Virus record (IMG/VR): IMGVR_UViG_3300047378_000142
Coordinates: 1 to 28,902 of that record
Direction: 5' to 3' (one strand)
DNA from: a virus
Length of the DNA stretch: 28,902 bases
This document shows positions 1 to 28,499 of the stretch, piece by piece. Under the pieces are notes generated by a model. It searched no databases, had not been told where the DNA came from, and saw only the letters and a program-made list of their open reading frames with translations. How positions within the stretch are numbered: position 1 is the stretch's first letter; each line of letters begins with the position of its first letter. The position numbers were made by a program, and so were the translations under genes.

Positions 1-3000
1 CTTTCAGCATTTTGCTGATTTATCTTTTGTTTTCTTTCTATCTCAGCTTTTGAATCGCCTGTATCTACAGGTTCAATTGCAAACATATTAGAAAAAGATG
101 CCATATTTGAAGGGTCTTTAAACTGATTGTACAGGTAGTACATTTGATTTTGACTATATATCCTAGCCTGTTCACTTAAAGACTTTACTAAAGCTCTTTT
201 AGTAATACCGTTTGGATTATTGTCGTAATCTTCTGAAATTTTATTATATTTTTCTAGATTAATTACTATCTCATTATTTGCTTTTTTGAAATTGTTTATT
301 TTGTCAGTCCATTTCTTACCAAAAATTTCTTCTAGCTTTGCTTTTATAATAGACTCATTTTCCATTCTCCTCTGCTTGTAAAGTCTAGTAGCAGAGTCTA
401 TTCTATCTGCAACCAATTCCATAGCAACACCACCCATCATTTCTCCGGGAAGTTTAGATATTCTTGTCATTACATCAGGAAGGGAGTTATTAGAATTAAG
501 AGCTTCGTCAATTCTATCTGCTATTTTTGATAATGTTGTTTTAAAATTATTTATAACCTTTTTATTTTCAGCAGCTCTATTTTTTTCAATTCTTCTTTCT
601 TCTAATTTTTTCTTTTCTTCTGCCAACTCTTCCTGACTTTTGTCAGGGTTTAGGTCTACAGATACGCCTGTAATGTCCTCATAAAGTCTTTCAAATTCTA
701 CTCTATATTCCTCAGATTGTTTTTTTAGTATTTCGCTTAAATTACTTTTACCAATTGTTACAACACCATTAAATAAATCAACGGCTCTTTCTAGCATATC
801 TATTTTATTAATATCAGTATCTGACATTAAAATAGATTGATTGTAATTTATTGCTACATTAATAGCATCAATTTTTTGTTCATCTTCTTTTGTCTTATCT
901 AGAATTTTTTCTAACTCATTTAATTCATTTATTAATTTCTCCTGCTTAGCACCTATTTCTTCGGCAGTAACTGAATCATTGTCTTCAACTAAATTGTTTG
1001 TTATACCATCTATTAAAACTTTAGTTTCCGCATCAACCGTTTTTGCAACAGGTCTACCACTCTGAATTGCAATGTATTTTCCTTTTAATAAATTATTAAA
1101 TTGTTTTTTTAACGCCTTTACGTTTTCATTTACAGCAAAATCCAAAACCTCTTTTTGTAAGTTTATTAGATTTGTTTCATTTGCTATAGCTATATTATCT
1201 ATAAGTTCTTTAAATAATGTATTTTTATCTAAATTTAATGTTCGAGGAAGAACAGACCTCATAAAGTTCCTTAACTGAGACTTTGTTTTATTCAGGTCTA
1301 TCTCGGCTTCTTTCGCTGTTCTTATTCTTGTTTTTAATTTAACTATTTTTTCAAAAACAGTTTCGGTTGGCTTTATCTTGGAGTTTCTTTGGAACTCAAC
1401 TATCATCTTTGCTTGTTGTATCGATAGTGACTTTCTTTCTCCTGCTTCATTTTTAAATTCAGGCTGAGACTCAAGGTACTCAATAGTCTTGTCCATTATC
1501 TGCTGACTAGTGAGTATTGGTTTTCTTTTATCGTTCTTTCTAGTTTCCTTTAATCTATATTCTTCTGTTTTAAGTACAGCCTCGTCTATAGCAGCCGTTC
1601 TCTCTTTTAGCTTACTATCTCTAAAGTCTCTTACCTTTTCATTTATTTGATTAGGAGTTAATTTATTTTTTCGTTTTTTATTTCTAGCTTCTTCTTTAGC
1701 TCTGAACTCCCTTGCCTGAATCTCTATATCTTTCTTTTTTTGTATAGGTTCTTTTTGTTTTCTTTCAAACTCTTTTACTTTTTCATTAAGCTGTGTGTTT
1801 GTAAGTTTAGTTCGCTTCTTATTATTTTGTTCTAACTTTATTCTATATTTCTTTACTTTATCGTATAGCTTAAGACCTTCCTTTACGCCACCTTTCATAT
1901 TTGCAAAACTTTTTGGAAGTTCTTCAAAGTCAGAAACATTCATTTTTAATAATGCATCTACTTTCTTAGCAGCAAATTTTCTTACTCTAACTAAGTAGTC
2001 TTTAATTTCGTCATTAGTAAACCCACCAAACCTTGCCTCTGTAATAGTATCAATTAAATCCTTCTGCTCACGAGATGCAGGAGTGGTCTCAGTAGTTTTT
2101 ACTTTAGTAATTACAACACCACTCTTGCCAAACGAATTATTCTTTTTAACTATGGCATTGTCTCCTAATAGTTCTTGAGCATAATCAACAAGTTCATTCC
2201 CATCAAAACCTTTTTGGAATACATCTACTATACCCCCCTTGGTTTTTCTTTTGATTATATAATTTTTTTCTTCAGGACCTATCTCGAAATTTTTAGACTT
2301 TGCAATATCTCCTTTAAATGCACGAGAACTAATAACTGCCGTACCACCTTCGTTTAATTTATCGAAGATATCCTGTATGATAAAATCTCTAATATTTTTA
2401 GGCACAACATTTACAACATTAAGAGACACAATTCCATCATAACTCTTTTTGATGTCCTCTGATTTAGTATAAGTTACAGGTTTAGCTCCCTTCCATCTTT
2501 CAGGGTTTATGTCAAGAGACTCTACATCTCTATCTAAGACATTGCTCATTGCATCTGTTCCTAACCCTAGACCTGCACCGTAGTCTAACACATCGCCAAC
2601 AACACCTAATCCTTTTAATATACGAGCTGCCTTAATATAACTACCTTGCGTATTACCAACCTGAGTAGTCCCGGAAGCCTTAGATAGTGCTTCATCAACT
2701 TGCTCACGAGATGCAGGAGTGGTTACATCTCTTACCCCTGAGCCATAAGGAGCTACTCCTTGAGCTTGTTGAGACTTTCCTTTACCCTCGTATTTCTTAC
2801 GCATCTCTTCAGGCATAATTTCAAGAGCATCAACTTTAATGTCAGGAACGCCTATTACTTCCCCTTCTACTGTATTAGAATAAGTTGAGTGATTAGAGCC
2901 TTCACGAACACCCGTTGGTTTTAAAACCAACATTACATCATTTTGCTTAAAATCATTTTCTTTATAGAAACCGTCACGCAAACTTTCAAGGTCTGTGTAT

Positions 3001-6000
3001 CCATTTATGGAATTAACATATTTTGTAAATGCTGTATTTGGGGTAGCCTGAGAATTGTTTAGTGCTATTAAAAAAGGTTTTCTATCTGTAGTTTCTTTTA
3101 ATTCCTTCCAAGAGTTGTATTTTTCAAGAGTTTCTTTTATAACTTTTACCGGTTTTGTTTCTAATGCTTTAGTTTTAAAATCATTAAAATCCCCTAATTT
3201 AGATGTAATAAAATCATAAGCAGCTTTGTTAAATAATTTACTCACAGTTGGCGAGCCACTTATTATAAATATATAATCTGCTTTATCTATATTTCTCTGT
3301 ATGCCTTTAGCAGACATACTACTTGCCCAAATATCATTTGGTTTTTGATGAGCAAAAGAAGGACCTCCATCAATACCTGTTTCTTGATTAATACCCAATT
3401 GGTCTGCTACCCAAAACCATACCTTTTGTTTTTTTGCTGCTATATCTTCAAGTAGTTTATAGAAATCAAAACTTTTATCAGGAGTAACTAATGAATTTTC
3501 ATAACTTTCTTTAAACTGTAATTGACTTCTTTCTGAAGGAAGATTTATTTCGGTTGGAGTTCCTATTGGATTAGTTCCATTGTCTAATGTTTCAATATCT
3601 AAAACATCCTCTTCGGTAAGCTCCTCGCCTGTTCTAGTTTTTTGTGCTAGTGTATTTATTAAATCAATAACACTTTCATCTGTCTTACCAAAATCTTGTC
3701 CTAAATTTATACCGAATACTTTAGCCAAGTCTTTGAAGAACTGAATTACTTTATTTTTTGCAGGCTTAGATAGCTGCGTGTAATTAAATTCATTAGAAGA
3801 TAATAAACCAATAAGCTCAGCTACATACTCTTCTTGCTGTTGCTCTTGCAGCTCTCCTGTGTATTGTTTAGAGAAAGCATCTATTCGTTTTGCTAATTCA
3901 CTATTTTTTGGTAATGTTTTTTTAACAGACAGTACCATTTGGTTTGCTACTTTTTGAGCACGTTTATCTGTCTTTACTTTATCTAAAAATATAGCGTGGA
4001 ATATTTCGTGCGGTACTGTACTCGCTGTTGCTTTTTCAAGATTAATATGAATTGTAGAACCTCCTTCTTTTTTAAAATCAATACTACCTTTACCTTTTTT
4101 GTTCGTATACCTTTCAAACTCTTCTTGAGTTTCGTGTAATATAATTTGTGTGTTTGGAAGTAACTTAGCAATAGACTTAGCACCTTGCTTGGCTGCTGTT
4201 AAAACAATTTTTCTTGCTTTATTAATTTTTTCAGGAGCTAATTTATCTTTACCTTTATTATTTACAAATAAGTTTTCACTTATAGTTTCCCTACCTTCTT
4301 GCTCTTGGAAAAATACTTCGATGTCAGTAGGTTCTTGTTTTTCTTCAGTCTTTGGTTTCATCTCAGGTATAGATTCCTCTATCTCCTGTTCAGTTTCCGT
4401 GGTTTCTAAAATGTTCTCCAACTGTTTATTAACCTCGTCAAGTTGTCTTTGCTTTGATTTTACCAACTGAGGGTCTTTGCCTTCTATCTGTTCTGTTAGT
4501 TCTTGTTTTTGATACAATAACTCTAATGCAGCCTTTTGTTGTTGCTCTGTATACCCATCAGGTATTTGCTGAGCTGCTGCTTGTATTCTATTGAAATCTT
4601 TCTCTTCAGCCTTAGCCTGCTCTACTGTAAGCTCGCCTGATGCAATTCTTTGCTTCAGGTCTGTCATATACATATCTTTGTAGTTAGGGTCTTTCAGTAT
4701 AGATTTGAATAGGTCAAATTGTTCATTTGAAACCGTTCTTAATCTTTTACCTTTTATAGCAGATACACTAGCAGGTATTGTAGCCATTGTAAAACCACCT
4801 ACAGCTTCAGCTAAACCTGCTTCAAAAGATTGCTTTAACCAACCACCAATACTGTCAGGTGTGTTAAACATATCTTTTTCTTTTACCTGATTGTATATTT
4901 CTTTTACTCCCAACTCAACCAACTGTTGAGAAAAACCTGTTTCAAACTCAGCTAAAGCACCCGAGCCAACTATCAATGAACCACGAGCTGCTGCACTTTC
5001 CACCTCTTCAGCCACAAATCTTTGAAATGTCTTAGCCGTTGCTCCTTTTGGAACTTTTTTAAATACACGCAATAATAGATTTGAAAGGAAACCTCTTTGA
5101 GAAAGTACGTTCCTTAAACCTCTTTCTTCTAAATAAGCACTTGCTAATGCTATAGGAATAGTGATTAATTTTTTTTCATTCTCAGAAATGTTCTCAAACT
5201 CAGGGTTTTTTTCCATTTCTTCTTTCACATATCCTGTATTTGTTAAAAACAATCTAGCTCTTCTACTAAAAGGTCCCCCTCCAACAAAGGCAGGTAATGA
5301 CTGAGCTAAGCCATAAAGACCTTGTTTTATTATTCCTTTTTGTCTTTCTTGTTCAACAAACTCTTTTGATGCTTCAGGAGCATCTATAGGTATATAATCT
5401 AATACATCGTCAATTACATCATTAACACCCTCTAATAAAGTTTTTTGCTCTTCAGCATAGTCTGCTGTTTCAGAAAATCTACTTCGTGTTTTTGGTTTTA
5501 ATGTTTGTTCTAATTGAAAATAATCTGCATCACCACCAACAATACCTCTTCGATACCCTTTCTTTATGGTATCTATTAACTTTCTATTAGCTCTATCAAA
5601 AGGAGTTCCTGAGTCTTTTAAAGCTGAATATGCAGCAATGGATGCCTCGGTACTTTTTGTAGCTAATCCAAAAACCTTAAATAGATTTTTTACATACACC
5701 AAATCATTAGTGTCTCCTCCTAACTTTTTAATCAACTCCTCTTTGCTAAGCCCTTCTAAGTTTTCGTCTTTATCTACTAGCCCTTCATCTTTTGCGATTT
5801 TAGATATAGCTTTAACGTAGTCTTCTTCAGACATAGTTGCGTTCTCGTCTACATAAACATCTACATCGTGTGCCTGACTAATTAATTCAGTAGCCATTAA
5901 TGCAATACCTTTCCTAAATTCTTTAGCCATACCACCCAAAAAAGTACCTTGCTTTCCTTTCATTGTGGTGTATTCTCCTACCAATCTATCTAGCTCAGCT

Positions 6001-7094
6001 CCCTTTGATTTTAATTGCTCTTGTCTTTGGTCTATTGTTTTTTGCTCTGCTAATAAATTCTTTTGAGTTTCTTGAAAAGATAAATATTCTTTATAAAGCT
6101 CAGGGTCAGCTTGCAGTTGTTGGAAAGTTAACCCTTCAAATTTTTTATACGATTCGTTGTATTCAGCTATTCTCTTTATGTGCTCTTTTTCTTGCTTGTA
6201 AAATTTTTCTGTTTGAGCATTTAATACAGCTACAGCATCTTTAACTTTGCTTTCGTCTTTTATTTTGACCAACTGATTTGCAGACTTCAGTTCTGTCTTG
6301 TTTTCTCTAATAAAATTCCTAAGCTCTCTTGCACTCTCTTTAGAGTTTAATCCTAAAAAAGGGTCTAAGTTCACATATAGTTTTTTTCTATTAGCAGAAG
6401 TAACCACCATAGCATCTCCACCACCTGTTTCTTCAAATGTAAAACCATAACGCCCAAAATTATAATTCATTTCCGGAACTACAATCTCTTCTTGACTCTC
6501 AATTTTTTCATCATCAATAAGACTTAATGATTCTTGTAAGTCATCAAACTCTGACTTTCTTTCTGCTAGTATAGTGCCCTTATACGGGTCTCTTCTAGAT
6601 ATTGTTTCACCTGTTTGGGGAAGATATATAAGTTCATCTTCCTTGCTTTTTTCTCTAGCCATCCTAGAGAGTTCTTCAGGAGAAACATAGGGCTGCTCAG
6701 CTAACCTTTCTTCTGTAGTTAGCTCGGGTGATATTTTTGGAGTGGCTTCGTCTAGTCTTTGAACTTGCTCTTGAGATATAGAAGGCTCTGCTATTTGCTG
6801 CTCTGTTGCAGGTGCAACTTCAGGCTCAACAGCCATTGGGTCAAATATGCTCTCATCTTGTTGAGATACCGATAAACCATCTTCTGCCGGAGCTTGCTCT
6901 GTAATAGATTCCGTAACGACCTCTGTCTCCAAAGAAGGCTCTGATTCTTCTTTTTTTTTTACGCCAAATTTTTCCTTAAAATCTTTAGCATAATTAATAA
7001 CATCTTCTTGACTAGCTCCATTTTCTATCATTTTTCTGATATTGGAGTCTAATTGACTGAGTCTATCTTTAGTTAAGATTAATTCTTCTTCCAT
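1..7094 (-). CDS. Giant multidomain phage protein (zincin peptidase + methyltransferase), 3' end outside window
   Basis: An uninterrupted reading frame starts at ATG 7094 and is still open at the left edge, giving at least 2364 codons. In order I see: an acidic, probably disordered N-terminus (1-110); a long coiled coil (about 270-370); a hydrophobic helical region (about 595-770); a zincin peptidase with HEIFH at 1029-1033 and a downstream EEYVAE (1088-1093) that may supply the third zinc ligand; an unassigned globular region (about 1200-1440); a class I SAM methyltransferase core (about 1470-1660, motif I VLDYGAGLG from 1502); and three ~48-residue charged repeats (from 1750, 1797 and 1846). 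The rest is helical and charged. Giant proteins with several enzyme domains are known in phages as large polyvalent proteins, usually thought to be packaged and ejected with DNA. Its place at the end of the tail/cargo operon, 9 bases after the 620-aa gene, fits that. The substrates are unknown. No RNA polymerase motif is seen in the visible part. Confidence 0.85.
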   Translation of the reverse strand, partial: MEEELILTKDRLSQLDSNIRKMIENGASQEDVINYAKDFKEKFGVKKKEESEPSLETEVVTESITEQAPAEDGLSVSQQDESIFDPMAVEPEVAPATEQQIAEPSISQEQVQRLDEATPKISPELTTEERLAEQPYVSPEELSRMAREKSKEDELIYLPQTGETISRRDPYKGTILAERKSEFDDLQESLSLIDDEKIESQEEIVVPEMNYNFGRYGFTFEETGGGDAMVVTSANRKKLYVNLDPFLGLNSKESARELRNFIRENKTELKSANQLVKIKDESKVKDAVAVLNAQTEKFYKQEKEHIKRIAEYNESYKKFEGLTFQQLQADPELYKEYLSFQETQKNLLAEQKTIDQRQEQLKSKGAELDRLVGEYTTMKGKQGTFLGGMAKEFRKGIALMATELISQAHDVDVYVDENATMSEEDYVKAISKIAKDEGLVDKDENLEGLSKEELIKKLGGDTNDLVYVKNLFKVFGLATKSTEASIAAYSALKDSGTPFDRANRKLIDTIKKGYRRGIVGGDADYFQLEQTLKPKTRSRFSETADYAEEQKTLLEGVNDVIDDVLDYIPIDAPEASKEFVEQERQKGIIKQGLYGLAQSLPAFVGGGPFSRRARLFLTNTGYVKEEMEKNPEFENISENEKKLITIPIALASAYLEERGLRNVLSQRGFLSNLLLRVFKKVPKGATAKTFQRFVAEEVESAAARGSLIVGSGALAEFETGFSQQLVELGVKEIYNQVKEKDMFNTPDSIGGWLKQSFEAGLAEAVGGFTMATIPASVSAIKGKRLRTVSNEQFDLFKSILKDPNYKDMYMTDLKQRIASGELTVEQAKAEEKDFNRIQAAAQQIPDGYTEQQQKAALELLYQKQELTEQIEGKDPQLVKSKQRQLDEVNKQLENILETTETEQEIEESIPEMKPKTEEKQEPTDIEVFFQEQEGRETISENLFVNNKGKDKLAPEKINKARKIVLTAAKQGAKSIAKLLPNTQIILHETQEEFERYTNKKGKGSIDFKKEGGSTIHINLEKATASTVPHEIFHAIFLDKVKTDKRAQKVANQMVLSVKKTLPKNSELAKRIDAFSKQYTGELQEQQQEEYVAELIGLLSSNEFNYTQLSKPAKNKVIQFFKDLAKVFGINLGQDFGKTDESVIDLINTLAQKTRTGEELTEEDVLDIETLDNGTNPIGTPTEINLPSERSQLQFKESYENSLVTPDKSFDFYKLLEDIAAKKQKVWFWVADQLGINQETGIDGGPSFAHQKPNDIWASSMSAKGIQRNIDKADYIFIISGSPTVSKLFNKAAYDFITSKLGDFNDFKTKALETKPVKVIKETLEKYNSWKELKETTDRKPFLIALNNSQATPNTAFTKYVNSINGYTDLESLRDGFYKENDFKQNDVMLVLKPTGVREGSNHSTYSNTVEGEVIGVPDIKVDALEIMPEEMRKKYEGKGKSQQAQGVAPYGSGVRDVTTPASREQVDEALSKASGTTQVGNTQGSYIKAARILKGLGVVGDVLDYGAGLGLGTDAMSNVLDRDVESLDINPERWKGAKPVTYTKSEDIKKSYDGIVSLNVVNVVPKNIRDFIIQDIFDKLNEGGTAVISSRAFKGDIAKSKNFEIGPEEKNYIIKRKTKGGIVDVFQKGFDGNELVDYAQELLGDNAIVKKNNSFGKSGVVITKVKTTETTPASREQKDLIDTITEARFGGFTNDEIKDYLVRVRKFAAKKVDALLKMNVSDFEELPKSFANMKGGVKEGLKLYDKVKKYRIKLEQNNKKRTKLTNTQLNEKVKEFERKQKEPIQKKKDIEIQAREFRAKEEARNKKRKNKLTPNQINEKVRDFRDSKLKERTAAIDEAVLKTEEYRLKETRKNDKRKPILTSQQIMDKTIEYLESQPEFKNEAGERKSLSIQQAKMIVEFQRNSKIKPTETVFEKIVKLKTRIRTAKEAEIDLNKTKSQLRNFMRSVLPRTLNLDKNTLFKELIDNIAIANETNLINLQKEVLDFAVNENVKALKKQFNNLLKGKYIAIQSGRPVAKTVDAETKVLIDGITNNLVEDNDSVTAEEIGAKQEKLINELNELEKILDKTKEDEQKIDAINVAINYNQSILMSDTDINKIDMLERAVDLFNGVVTIGKSNLSEILKKQSEEYRVEFERLYEDITGVSVDLNPDKSQEELAEEKKKLEERRIEKNRAAENKKVINNFKTTLSKIADRIDEALNSNNSLPDVMTRISKLPGEMMGGVAMELVADRIDSATRLYKQRRMENESIIKAKLEEIFGKKWTDKINNFKKANNEIVINLEKYNKISEDYDNNPNGITKRALVKSLSEQARIYSQNQMYYLYNQFKDPSNMASFSNMFAIEPVDTGDSKAEIERKQKINQQNAE
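1480..1851 (-). repeat. Three tandem ~48-residue charged repeats within the giant protein
   Basis: Translated units begin at residues 1750, 1797 and 1846 of the giant protein (spacing 47 and 49). Each follows the pattern aromatic-R-x-K-x-E, then N-x-K-R, then L-T-x-x-Q-[IL], then K and an aromatic residue. The matching cores are LTNTQLNEKV, LTPNQINEKV and LTSQQIMDKT. The units have diverged at DNA level, so this is an old protein repeat. They are probably helical and highly charged. The function is unknown. Confidence 0.8.
2065..2087. repeat. 23-bp direct repeat, copy 1 (methyltransferase C-terminal boundary)
   Basis: These 23 bases are identical to 2701-2723. Read in frame on the minus strand they encode TTPASREQ at residues 1670-1677 of the giant protein. 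The copies start 636 bases (212 codons) apart, so the interval is in frame and contains the whole methyltransferase core. The flanking bases differ on both sides. Confidence 0.9.
2701..2723. repeat. 23-bp direct repeat, copy 2 (methyltransferase N-terminal boundary)
   Basis: Exact copy of 2065-2087, encoding TTPASREQ at residues 1458-1465 of the giant protein, just before the methyltransferase domain. Recombination between the two copies would cleanly delete the 212-residue module without shifting the frame. Confidence 0.9.
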
Positions 7095-7103
7095 TTTTTA
7101 AAT

Positions 7104-8966
7104 CTATTCATAAATAGGATTCCCATTCGCATCTAAGCCTACATATTTTTTACCTGTAGCTGCCCCCTCAGTTAATGAAGACATAAAGTTTTCTGCAACT
7201 TCATCTAATAAACCCGTGTTCATAAAGTTTATCAAATCATTTAATTCGTCTTCATTATCAAGATTTACATCAATAAAAGAATCGTCTGCCGTGTTCGTAA
7301 TTCTTGCTTTATTAAATCCCGGGTCAAAAGTATCACGAGCTTTAAAACCTAAGTTTTCATAATACTTATTAAAATCTTCTGTAAACCCTCCTTCGTCAGA
7401 ATTAAATTTTCCTTCTTCATCAACAATCTTAGTTTTCATTGCACGAATATAGTCTTTAGCATCTCTAACAGGGTCATCGCTAAATGCTTCTATTCCTGTT
7501 TCTGTTGCCACATACTCTCCCTCGGCAGGTCTTATGTTAGCACCACCATTAAAGTCTTCACCCATTTGATTCCATTCTGCTTTAGTTGGGTTAGCAACAA
7601 AATAATTTCCATCTTTATCTTTTCTAATTATTTGAAGTGGAATAGAATTCTTACCTGTTTTTGTTTTTCCTTTTCCGCTTGCATCATCGTAATAAACCTC
7701 CAATGCTTTATACTTTAAATTTGATACAGGGTCTGTTAGCTCAACAAACTTCCCTCCCTTATATCCTAATTTTACCATTCGGTCCGTACTAGCTAATTGC
7801 TTCATAAGAATTTTTTGTTGCTCAGGAGATGCAGCATATATATTATTCCAAAGCTCAGCCGATTTTGGTATTTTATTTCCGCCTCCGCCTCCGCCTCCGC
7901 CTCTATACGAAGGTCTAGTTACTCTTCCTGTGCTAGTTGCTGCTACTGTTCTGTCTAGCTTAGCTCTGAATTGACTTCTAAGGAAATCTTTACCCATATT
8001 TATTTGTTCTTCAGTAAGGGAAGGCATTAGTAGACCACCTTCTGTATATTCCTGCTTTATATTTTTAGAACCCTTGCAATCTTCTCCCGGCTTACAATTT
8101 GTAAAACCACCGACTCCATCCATCAAAACAGAAACAGCTTGAAATGGGTCAGCCATTATTTCACCTAGTGCTGCTTCTTCAGCTTCAAGAAAGGCATTCC
8201 CTGCCTCTTTAATCTCTTTGCTAACAAAAGCATCCGAATCCATTGCAGTTATATCTTTTACTTTAAATAACGTCCCTGCTTTTGCGTAAGTTGCAAGCTC
8301 TTTAAATACATACTCGTAATCTCCTAGCTTATTGACAACTTTATCTAACGCAGCATTTGAATCAAATTCTTTTACGTCTTGCAGGAAAATATTACCAAAA
8401 GCCTGTAAGCTAACGGTATCGTTAGGGTCTGTACTGTTCACAAAACCACCTTTCCCGTCAGAAATAACTTTATTGCCAACCATATTTCCATCCTTTTGAA
8501 TCACAATCCTTGTGTTATTTAAGTTTGTAAACCTCATTAGGTTGTCCATATTCTGACGAGTATAATCAGACATAGTACCGTCAGTTGATGACTTTACAAG
8601 ATTAGCATATTGTTTATTTAGGTTCTGCTGTGTTTTTATAAGAAGGTCAGAGTTGTCCGTAAGATTTTGAAGTCTTCGTTGGTATTCGTATGTTGTAATG
8701 TCTCCATTTTTCCAAGCCTTATTATTTGAAACGCTAAATGCTTTTATGTCATTAGCATTGTCCATAAAAATCTGATTCCAAGTGGTGTTAGCACCTAATG
8801 GAACTTCGACATCAGCTGCTACTGTAGCTAAGTTGTCAAGTGCCTTAAATTCTGCTTCACCCTTTTCTCTTGTGGTGATAAGCATATCTGAGAAGCTCTT
8901 TCCAATATCACCCCAATTTACTCGAGTGTTCGCATCTCTTTCTACATATCCAAATTTAGTTGCCAT
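7104..8966 (-). CDS. Probable virion cargo/internal protein with polyglycine hinge (620 aa)
   Basis: I do not recognise a named family. The protein has an N-terminal, mostly helical half (residues 1-350) with a short Cys-containing loop near residue 290 (two Cys in NCKPGEDCKG). Eight consecutive glycines follow at 356-363, then a charged, Asp/Asn-rich C-terminal half. There is no signal peptide and no clear membrane span. It lies between the 216-aa internal-virion-type gene (3 bases upstream) and the giant enzyme gene (9 bases downstream), in the position where crAss-like and other podoviruses encode proteins packaged in the capsid or tail and ejected on infection. The cargo role is therefore inferred from position only. 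The hinge suggests two independently folded halves. Confidence 0.75.
   Translation of the reverse strand: MATKFGYVERDANTRVNWGDIGKSFSDMLITTREKGEAEFKALDNLATVAADVEVPLGANTTWNQIFMDNANDIKAFSVSNNKAWKNGDITTYEYQRRLQNLTDNSDLLIKTQQNLNKQYANLVKSSTDGTMSDYTRQNMDNLMRFTNLNNTRIVIQKDGNMVGNKVISDGKGGFVNSTDPNDTVSLQAFGNIFLQDVKEFDSNAALDKVVNKLGDYEYVFKELATYAKAGTLFKVKDITAMDSDAFVSKEIKEAGNAFLEAEEAALGEIMADPFQAVSVLMDGVGGFTNCKPGEDCKGSKNIKQEYTEGGLLMPSLTEEQINMGKDFLRSQFRAKLDRTVAATSTGRVTRPSYRGGGGGGGGNKIPKSAELWNNIYAASPEQQKILMKQLASTDRMVKLGYKGGKFVELTDPVSNLKYKALEVYYDDASGKGKTKTGKNSIPLQIIRKDKDGNYFVANPTKAEWNQMGEDFNGGANIRPAEGEYVATETGIEAFSDDPVRDAKDYIRAMKTKIVDEEGKFNSDEGGFTEDFNKYYENLGFKARDTFDPGFNKARITNTADDSFIDVNLDNEDELNDLINFMNTGLLDEVAENFMSSLTEGAATGKKYVGLDANGNPIYE
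7878..7903. repeat. Hexanucleotide microsatellite (TCCGCC)x4 plus two bases
   Basis: Four perfect tandem copies of TCCGCC, followed by TC, encode the eight-glycine run (alternating GGC and GGA) at residues 356-363 of the 620-aa protein. It is a G+C-rich island in an A+T-rich genome. Slippage by whole units would change linker length by two glycines and keep the frame. Confidence 0.95.
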
Positions 8967-8969
8967 ACG

Positions 8970-9620
8970 TTATGCTGTTGTGTCTGCTAATGGTGTATAA
9001 GAGCCCCTCCCTGTTCTAAGGTATCTATTATTTATACGTTTCTGCTTATTCATAGCAGCTATATTTGGGTCAAATGCTGCTTCAGGCAAAAGACTTAACC
9101 CTGCCATTGAAGCCTGTTGTATACCTTGCATCCCTTGCTGCATATATTGTGCTGCTGCTTCTTCAGCATCTGCTTGTGCCATCTGCTGACCTGCAACTTC
9201 TCCTAATTGAATTTGAGTTCTTAGGTCACGAAGTCTCATATCTTCTCCAACAACTTGTTCTTTTATACGCTGCCCTTCTGTTCCCATTGCTGTAGCAATT
9301 TTTCTTTGACCTTGCTGAATTGCTTGTTGAACAGCAGGAACTCTAGCAAGACCTCTATCGCTTTCTCTAAGACCTTCGATTGCTTGTGCACCTGTCACCA
9401 TTAAGGCTTCTCTTTCTAACTCATATGGTTCTTTATAAATAGAAAGTTGCTCTGCGTAATTTTTTTCTAAATCTTTATTTGCAGCAGAAAGTGCTCGTTG
9501 TGCATTTATTTCTGCCTCTTTTGCTTTTCTTTTTTCTTTTCCAACCTGAGCAAAGCTCATTCCTGCCTGCCCTAATCCTACACCTATTGATGCTACTGTT
9601 AATGCCGTTGCTACTGCCAT
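8970..9620 (-). CDS. Internal virion-type protein (T7 gp14-like by shape), 216 aa
   Basis: The first ~30 residues form a small-residue-rich hydrophobic helix (many Ala, Gly and Val). A long charged, Gln/Ala-rich helical region with coiled-coil character follows (about 28-175), then a short basic tail. This architecture resembles the small internal virion or ejection proteins of podoviruses (T7 gp14, P22 gp7), which insert into the host membrane to make a DNA conduit. I cannot claim sequence homology. The gene sits 1 base after the GNAT-like gene and 3 bases before the 620-aa cargo-like gene, so the three are surely co-translated. The start is ATG at 9620. Confidence 0.75.
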   Translation of the reverse strand: MAVATALTVASIGVGLGQAGMSFAQVGKEKRKAKEAEINAQRALSAANKDLEKNYAEQLSIYKEPYELEREALMVTGAQAIEGLRESDRGLARVPAVQQAIQQGQRKIATAMGTEGQRIKEQVVGEDMRLRDLRTQIQLGEVAGQQMAQADAEEAAAQYMQQGMQGIQQASMAGLSLLPEAAFDPNIAAMNKQKRINNRYLRTGRGSYTPLADTTA

Positions 9621-9621
9621 A

Positions 9622-10032
9622 TTATAATTTTTTTATCATTTCAGATGAATAGCTATCTCCCTCAACATACCCTAACTTTTTGTAGACATCTATCAGACCT
9701 CTGTGTTTTATTAGAGCATATGCTATTGATGCACCATTCATCTTACATATTTTTGTTAACGTATTTATTAATAACTCTATAGCCATTGACCTGTTTGGTT
9801 TTTTTCTGTAGTTTTTATTAGAAATTATCCAATCAACCCAAGCAACTTCCGAGTTAGTTCTATATATAAAACCTGCACATACAGGAATGTCTTCGTCATA
9901 AACCATAAAACCACCCGTAGCATTTTCAGGTAAGAATGATTTTGGAGGTGCTGCCCAACCCCAATCTTTCCACCAATCTACAAGTATATCGTCATAGTCA
10001 GTTTCGGATAATGGCTTAACGTCAAACATCAT
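9622..10032 (-). CDS. GNAT-like N-acetyltransferase with degenerate CoA loop (136 aa)
   Basis: The order of elements fits a small GNAT fold. An N-terminal helix region is followed by a strand FMVYDEDIPVCAGFIY (about 42-57), then VAWVDWIIS (63-71), then the turn YRKKPNRS into a helix (75-100), and a C-terminal YKKLGYVEGD (about 117-126) typical of the GNAT end. The usual acetyl-CoA pyrophosphate loop, R/Q-x-x-G-x-G/A, is replaced here by R76-K-K-P-N-R81, with no glycine, so binding may be altered. The frame opens at a TTG (10041), but ATG codons at 10032 and 10029 are more likely starts. GNAT genes occur in the structural blocks of several marine podoviruses; the target is unknown. A TATCTTTG box lies just upstream of the chosen ATG. 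Confidence 0.7.
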   Translation of the reverse strand: MMFDVKPLSETDYDDILVDWWKDWGWAAPPKSFLPENATGGFMVYDEDIPVCAGFIYRTNSEVAWVDWIISNKNYRKKPNRSMAIELLINTLTKICKMNGASIAYALIKHRGLIDVYKKLGYVEGDSYSSEMIKKL

Positions 10033-10038
10033 TGACCA

Positions 10039-10046
10039 CAAAGATA
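10039..10046 (-). promoter_or_regulatory. Candidate Bacteroidota -7 box (TATCTTTG) before the GNAT-like gene
   Basis: The minus strand reads TATCTTTG, matching TAnnTTTG, and ends 6 bases before the ATG at 10032. No TTG/TTTG -33 element is evident at the usual distance. If used, the transcript would be leaderless or nearly so. The box overlaps the alternative TTG start at 10041, which argues for the downstream ATG. Confidence 0.35.
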
Positions 10047-10052
10047 ATAAAA

Positions 10053-10883
10053 TTAAGGGAAACTTTTCATAACCTCTGACTCAACAGCAAATAACTCAAC
10101 CTTTGTGTTTTCTGAATATGTTAAATCAAATACTGCATAGTGCCCTAATACTCCGTGAGATTCAGCAACTGAGTTCTTGATAAATAAGAAGGTCTCTACG
10201 TTTGTTGGTATCGGTGTAGTACCGGCAGGTGATGTATCTATAATAACATTATTAACACCCCCTCTAAGGTTTACATTAATGGCTGTTACATTTCCTGCAT
10301 ACACAGGCTCGTTAGTAGCTGACAAGAAGTAGAAGTAGTCATCAACACTTAATATGTTTCCTATCTGAACTGTTGTTGCAAAGTTTATTGTAGCAATACC
10401 TGCACCAATAACTACTGTTGTACTATTACCTATTCCGTTTAGTGAACGCAATGAAAACTCAGGCAAAGCAGCAGGTGATGAACCTAGCCCTTCGTTTCTG
10501 ACAAACGCAAACCAACTCTGCTCTTTCTTTTCAAAGTAATCTGCATTTATAAACCCTGAATCTTGTATGTCTGTTTTAATAGTAGCTGCCCAACTATCGT
10601 CTCCCTCTAAATTAAGAGTTTTAAAGAGTTTATTCTCTAGTGGCGACACATTGAATACACTTTCCATTTTAGACGGCTTGAAAGCCTCGTCAGGAGTTCC
10701 TACCTGAGTCCAAAAGTCAGTATAGAACGTGTTTCTATTTTCATTTACATTGTGGCGGTAAAGGTTACCCCCTTTGAAAGTATAAAAGTAATTATTCATT
10801 CCTATCATCCAATCAGGATAATAGGTATAAAAGGATGGGAATCCCTGTACCCCTTCATCGTATGTTAGTGTATAATTCGCCAT
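10053..10883 (-). CDS. Tail-associated structural protein, crAss-like type (276 aa)
   Basis: The N-terminal ~150 residues are rich in aromatic residues and follow a pattern I associate with proteins encoded just after the tail-stabilisation/muzzle gene in Bacteroidota podoviruses. These are YDEGVQGFPSF at the start, DWMIGMNNYFYTF, LYRHNV, and later SWFAFVRNE. The C-terminal half (about 150-276) is beta-rich with short Val/Ile/Thr strands. No enzymatic motif or membrane span is seen. The 3-base gap to the 308-aa gene upstream and the short gap to the GNAT-like gene place it firmly in the tail operon. Probable role: exposed part of the tail hub, or an attachment point for receptor-binding elements. 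That role is inferred. Confidence 0.7.
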   Translation of the reverse strand: MANYTLTYDEGVQGFPSFYTYYPDWMIGMNNYFYTFKGGNLYRHNVNENRNTFYTDFWTQVGTPDEAFKPSKMESVFNVSPLENKLFKTLNLEGDDSWAATIKTDIQDSGFINADYFEKKEQSWFAFVRNEGLGSSPAALPEFSLRSLNGIGNSTTVVIGAGIATINFATTVQIGNILSVDDYFYFLSATNEPVYAGNVTAINVNLRGGVNNVIIDTSPAGTTPIPTNVETFLFIKNSVAESHGVLGHYAVFDLTYSENTKVELFAVESEVMKSFP

Positions 10884-28198: not shown

Positions 28199-28499
28199 CA
28201 ACGGAGACACATTGGTTGCCATCACTCTTGAGCAGATGGATAACATATACATTGAGCTAATCCAAAAGGATAGCCTAATGGAACAGGCTATTATAAGCTC
28301 TTCTAAGGAACTTAAACTATATGAGCTAGTATCTATAGCAGAGATTAACTTAAAGTCTTGTGAGGATGTCTTAAAAGATGCCTCAGATAATAATACTTAT
28401 TTAATGTCTGAGAACAAGAAAATAGATAGTAAACTTAAAAGGACTAGAAAGGTTGCCATATACACTACTATTTTTGCTATACTTAGTATCCTTCTTTAG
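28119..28499 (+). CDS. Secreted coiled-coil protein with C-terminal membrane helix, lysis candidate (126 aa)
   Basis: A signal-peptide-like start (MKGKLAIIIYCLLLNVSAYS, likely cut before Gln21) is followed by a charged helical stretch with coiled-coil character (about 35-108). A hydrophobic segment (IYTTIFAILSILL, 114-126) then ends the protein. There is no lipobox cysteine at the signal end, so it is not a classical Rz1 lipoprotein. The gene begins inside the preceding membrane-protein gene (80-base overlap) and ends 17 bases inside the convergent amidase gene. Together these suggest a lysis cassette in which it could act as the second spanin component, a unimolecular spanin, or a holin-like protein. 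The role is inferred from topology and neighbours. Confidence 0.6.
   Translation: MKGKLAIIIYCLLLNVSAYSQVGLIDNNGDTLVAITLEQMDNIYIELIQKDSLMEQAIISSSKELKLYELVSIAEINLKSCEDVLKDASDNNTYLMSENKKIDSKLKRTRKVAIYTTIFAILSILL

Follow-up and report, generated by a model that had tools for sequence, protein, structure and literature searches.

An enzyme-bearing giant at the end of a phage virion operon is probably an ejection protein with exchangeable cassettes

The DNA examined here (a 28.9-kb linear virus record of 28,902 nucleotides, all of it hereafter called the window) runs out inside one very long minus-strand frame, which raises the question of what a phage would do with a single chain that appears to join unrelated enzymes directly behind its virion genes. 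The minus strand encodes, in order, an amidase, a co-chaperonin GroES-like protein, the terminase, the portal, the capsid protein and ring-like proteins; these are followed by a 1503-aa muzzle-type protein and, last, by proteins of 216, 620 and at least 2,364 aa, referred to here as p216, p620 and the giant (Table 1). An earlier note on this DNA had placed the giant at the end of a cargo operon, and it is indeed the last gene after the muzzle and structural genes. The window terminase is 78% identical to that of an uncultured podovirus from Manatee Spring (MW202828.1), 46% identical to those of Flavobacterium phages of the genus Elemovirus, and 31-39% identical to those of Pachyviridae and Pervagoviridae phages of Cellulophaga and Tenacibaculum. 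Judged by these sequence comparisons, the source virus is a podophage related to flavobacterial phages, with Pervagoviridae, Pachyviridae and Elemovirus as near relatives. Pachyviridae and Pervagoviridae lie near Crassvirales in published structural comparisons (PMC9855967). The crassvirus muzzle C-terminal domain PF25729 was matched (E 5e-13) by a separate 276-aa gene (10053-10883, minus strand), apart from the 1503-aa muzzle-type protein. Between the muzzle and the putative ejection genes lies a gene for a 139-aa protein (9622-10041, minus strand; phrog_17252), detected in 70 ORFs of the loci compared, whose MW202828 counterpart is annotated as an N-terminal acetyltransferase subunit. A tRNA-Leu gene (28265-28336, minus strand) adjoins the phage amidase.

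Table 1. Features of the giant and of the two genes preceding it, with positions in the window.
Feature	Residues	Position	Strand	Evidence
Giant, putative cargo/ejection protein; 2,364 aa, ATG start, C-terminus missing at contig edge		3..7094	-	Uninterrupted frame, no stop
Domain A, conserved N-terminal scaffold	186-440	5775..6539	-	24-41% identity in relatives; also in MW202828 giant
Domain B, mildly hydrophobic helical scaffold	550-895	4410..5447	-	Conserved in relatives
Domain C, zincin-like metallopeptidase (best reading)	957-1168	3591..4226	-	Invariant HExxH and downstream Glu; weak Zn-peptidase family matches
HEIFH motif	1029-1033	3996..4010	-	Sequence; conservation
Domain D, unknown fold, virus-only	1187-1467	2694..3536	-	Most conserved part of family
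Domain E, class I SAM-dependent methyltransferase (MTase) cassette	1468-1670	2085..2693	-	Sub-threshold Pfam match; fold match
Segment F, highly charged helical linker, imperfect repeats	1671-1842	1569..2084	-	K, R, D, E = 44%
Domain G, C-terminal scaffold, incomplete at contig edge	1843-2364	3..1568	-	24-38% identity in relatives
p620, proposed ejection trio member 2		7104..8966	-	Syntenic in 49/60 relatives; phi38:1 gp100 counterpart labelled structural
p216, hydrophobic N-terminus, proposed ejection trio member 1		8970..9620	-	phrog_13764 virion structural, E 5.5e-15; synteny

The claim of a single giant frame cut off at the left end of the window held, as no stop codon precedes the contig edge and relatives are longer. 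A search of viral contigs returned 28 relatives, in single frames of up to 3,783 aa, and in local alignments relatives run 570-620 aa past the end of the window; the giant is short by about that length here, and further domains may be out of view. The exact A-B-C-D-E-F-G order recurs in three contigs, L044 (2,900 aa), L046 (2,899 aa; L047 is an open-ended repeat of it) and L059, and for this reason the giant is not attributed to chance or to a contig chimera. An assembly chimera or frameshift read-through might have been suspected, given that the contig ends inside the gene and that the frame of L059 is split at an ambiguous base, but the independent contigs L044 and L046 share the order and are complete at about 2,900 aa, which already refutes this explanation and leaves it a negligible probability. 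The L059 break was likewise rejected as a natural split, being an ambiguous-base artefact. L020 and L080 provide natural splits: their giant is encoded by separate genes (931+172+1931 aa) and divided between the scaffold and the enzyme half. No NCBIfam model matched the giant.

The enzyme-like domains are flanked by scaffold and linker segments. Domain B corresponds to the hydrophobic helices of the earlier note; its mildly hydrophobic character was borne out, but a membrane region was not, as the best 19-residue mean hydropathy in residues 550-895 was 1.17, below the usual transmembrane threshold, and no canonical transmembrane helix was found there. The charged repeats reported for segment F are present as two clear imperfect copies (residues ~1746-1782 and ~1793-1831), with a score of 79 where shuffled sequences reached 54 at most, and TRF found no DNA repeat in this region.

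The proposed metallopeptidase corresponds to domain C, where the H, E and H of HEIFH are invariant in 22 relatives, E1088 and E1089 are also invariant, and E1093 is nearly so. The HExxH motif is thus accompanied by candidates for the third ligand expected of zincins, namely E1088 or E1089 and the near-invariant E1093. Individual members of the domain weakly match the DUF5700, M78, DUF6782 and SprT-like zinc-peptidase families, and no Pfam zinc-peptidase family was shown to pass its cut-off for domain C. The AlphaFold prediction (pLDDT ~80 here) places the HExxH helix after two strands; the Foldseek matches listed were all methyltransferases, with no zincin structure amongst them. From the motif, its conservation and the predicted secondary structure, a zincin-like fold is the best reading. 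Among the papers searched, none joined crAss-like phages with a zincin.

Domain D is conserved across the 24 sequences aligned first, and a scan turned up 74 viral loci with the domain. L099-L105 are among them, and several of this series are without the flavophage neighbour genes. When ~85,000 prokaryote genomes were scanned for the D pattern, a search of limited sensitivity, the pattern matched 95 times and no relative of D emerged. No Pfam family matched the domain, and ASCH (PF04266) had no match in the window; DUF6559 was rejected, as it reached E 0.007 at best, below cut-off, in 4 of 24 members. The structural model of D is confident (pLDDT 91.9, pTM 0.87). Compared by fold with the PDB, it returned nothing below E 1 and many weak matches to ASCH, YTH and other PUA-like domains, which serve as a lead only. 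By sequence, the PDB gave a single match, 46 columns long, to Legionella RavD (E 0.02-0.06), and it was not taken as homology. A viral structure library yielded 16 matches at E 1.5e-4 or better, most at 10-16% identity, and these structural relatives come with no named function for the domain. Amongst the residues invariant in the most distant members are F-W-x-A-D-Q, W-A, G-S, N, F and H-x-T-Y, a pattern that suggests a binding or active site. With such invariant polar and aromatic residues (including D, Q, S, H, T and Y), D is probably an enzyme or a ligand-binding domain needed by most members of the family. A giant from another phage lineage that contains a distant relative of D (L104:6993-14195) has an L5 gp82-like domain as well, together with an ART-PolyVal match that falls just short of its cut-off.

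The methyltransferase claim for domain E was confirmed at the level of predicted structure. Pfam Methyltransf_23 scored E 3e-4, below its cut-off, and the model (pLDDT ~95) matched class I SAM methyltransferases in Foldseek, the best being glycine-sarcosine N-methyltransferase 5him (E 6e-7). The glycine-rich motif I expected of a Rossmann methyltransferase reads DYGAGLG. At the place of the DarB-type NPPY/F motif stands N-V-V-N-V-V-P, and no helicase domain was found in the giant; because the NPPY/F motif of DNA adenine methyltransferases is missing, DNA is not favoured as the target. The lack of a DNA-methyltransferase motif and the fold matches to small-molecule and peptide N-methyltransferases make a protein or metabolite target more likely.

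Relatives of E extend well beyond this group of phages. A single-sequence query of the viral contigs returned 0 matches and an alignment query 344. The 70 non-redundant E-bearing frames, picked by similarity to the window and therefore biased in their fractions, comprised 47 in proteins of at least 1,000 aa, 15 in proteins of 300-999 aa and 8 solo methyltransferases. In cultured or named phages the relatives of E belong to large proteins: the genes for CRP-738 gp40 and CRP-3 gp36 each stand between portal and coat genes, that for Myrna gp97 is a near neighbour of the major head gene, HTVC103P gp52 has a lysozyme domain besides, and the LS06 relative is a giant.

The conservation of E was compared with that of the packaging gene TerL. 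Across phages whose TerL is 35-82% identical to that of the window, the methyltransferase stays at 66-73%: L044 (TerL 82%, MTase 67%), L127 (82%, 68%, with no D), L117 (77%, 70%), L125 (66%, 69%), L131 (47%, 68%) and L116 (35%, 73%). Because this identity is flat with respect to TerL, and because relatives in unrelated phages sit mostly in large proteins, several of them beside portal or coat genes, the methyltransferase is taken to move as a cassette. The other domains also recombine. L013 (TerL 75%) has D and lacks the methyltransferase, D precedes C in L026, and a non-redundant set contained 53 ORFs with zincin and D, 21 with zincin and methyltransferase, 5 with all three and 1 in the order D-zincin. 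Between the window and MW202828, identity is 78% for the terminase, 75% for the portal, 69% for the capsid protein (MCP), 44% for the muzzle, 38% for p216 and 22% for p620; the two giants share only two patches at 25-33% identity, and the MW202828 giant has its HExxH motifs elsewhere. As enzyme parts are swapped between phages in this way, the virion probably contains the giant and delivers it along with the DNA.

Gene order and database labels are consistent with such a role. The trio p216-p620-giant closes the virion operon in 49 of 60 relatives, and most of the others have proteins of similar size in its place. In relatives p216 often begins with a hydrophobic segment; its profile found no match in the PDB. 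A perfect TCCGCC repeat (7878-7903) corresponds to a glycine run within p620. The end-of-operon proteins phi38:1 gp101 and phi13:2 gp127 and the elemo giant, tied by sequence to the window giant through L016, L020 and L021, appear in database records as structural or virion structural proteins. The earlier suggestion of an injected protein stands in so far as these syntenic proteins of cultured phages are labelled structural, while for the window protein itself we infer presence in the virion.

Comparison with known systems helps to place the giant. Polyvalent proteins (Iyer et al. 2017, PMC5512222) are giant chains, encoded near virion genes, that join unrelated enzymes and commonly include a zincin-like peptidase as a partner. 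The giant likewise combines a zincin-like domain and a SAM methyltransferase in one chain encoded among virion genes, in keeping with the comparison already drawn in the earlier note; it differs in that its methyltransferase is not a DarB-type NPPY adenine methyltransferase. The catalogued polyvalent domains (MPTase-PolyVal, ART and LPDs), typical but not strictly required, gave no Pfam match in the giant, C or D, and D appears not to be among the Pfam LPD domains because neither it nor the giant matched any of them. The combination is unusual in that only a handful of relatives have it, but the principle is the known polyvalent one. In T7 the genes gp14-gp15-gp16 are three consecutive late genes with the largest last, as in the window trio, and no sequence match between the two trios was found. 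T7 gp16 is not known to have a methyltransferase or a zincin. The N4 virion RNA polymerase gp50 (Schitoviridae) is a giant ejected protein with an N-terminal ejection region and an HExxH domain, and the largest member of the T7 and N4 ejection proteins enters the cell (PMC12633501). Pfam and PDB sequence searches of the window giant, which lacks ~600 aa, gave no match to the N4 enzyme or to T7-type RNA polymerases. Crassviruses, with a related virion by the muzzle domain match, carry large proteins as cargo (PMC10172136), and the giant gave no match to a cargo or RNA polymerase family of crassviruses. The giant of Flavobacterium phage elemo (QMP85339.1) occupies the same gene position and has a zincin 37% identical to that of the window; it differs in that D and the methyltransferase were not detected and DUF3293 is present instead. 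In that protein (L030:7612-18696) DUF3293 (E 1e-12) lies just upstream of the zincin, apparently as a different payload. The best reading is thus a polyvalent ejection protein with an interchangeable payload at the T7 gp16/N4 gp50 operon position, a variant of a known principle.

Beyond the observed domain content, conservation, synteny and cassette exchange, we infer that the giant is probably the largest of three ejection proteins, with conserved scaffolds and exchangeable enzyme cassettes. The N- and C-terminal scaffolds, with the cassettes lying between them, would package it in the capsid and then thread it through the tail, either together with the DNA or before it. In the cell envelope or cytoplasm, the metallopeptidase would most likely cut the chain at linkers and free the other domains, and within minutes of the start of infection the freed methyltransferase may then modify a target belonging to either host or phage. 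Zincin domains have been proposed to release parts of polyvalent chains (Iyer et al., PMC5512222), and we lean towards such release here. Counting against processing, the N4 vRNAP, which bears an HExxH domain, was reported as a full-length protein without degradation (PMC12633501). The peptidase could instead be an effector that cuts host proteins while the giant stays unprocessed; zincins are common effectors and this alternative was raised for polyvalent proteins in the same study (PMC5512222), but domain C persists beside very different partner domains and in either order, as expected of a shared helper such as a processing protease, and we regard the effector role as doubtful. On another, tentative reading, several phage lineages would deliver D in their virions as a virus-only enzyme or a reader of modified nucleic acid with a new fold, and the methyltransferase linked to it would be a mobile injected effector acting on a non-DNA host target.

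Both enzymes might also act earlier, in virion assembly, with the peptidase maturing internal proteins in the prohead and the methyltransferase modifying capsid or cargo proteins. The late-gene position would suit this, as would the finding that structural proteins of phages, the major capsid protein of phi38:1 among them, are methylated in free virions (PMC13288928). Yet the methylation in phi38:1 is attributed mainly to the host, since no methyltransferase is known to be encoded by this phage; moreover, most of the relatives that a search with the whole protein returned lack the methyltransferase, which is thus not needed for assembly, and rapid payload exchange better fits a host-facing role. 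We therefore hold an assembly role to be unlikely. That the domains are relics in a passive part of a DNA-ejection channel is more improbable still: in its favour stands the 1691-aa phi38:1 gp101, in which no C, D or E domain or HExxH was found, but the catalytic-type residues of C and D are invariant across dozens of divergent relatives and the methyltransferase is kept at 66-73% identity.

The preferred reading, an ejected giant with exchangeable cassettes, would make the ejection proteins of flavobacterium-type phages interchangeable payload carriers. Close relatives share 70-80% identity in their capsid and packaging genes but have almost entirely different cargo proteins. One methyltransferase module is common to phages of Roseobacter, Pelagibacter and Mycobacterium and to flavophage-like viruses, and D is strongly conserved, without a cellular counterpart among the genomes scanned; each of the two lends itself to separate expression and assay, and relatives are available in culture.
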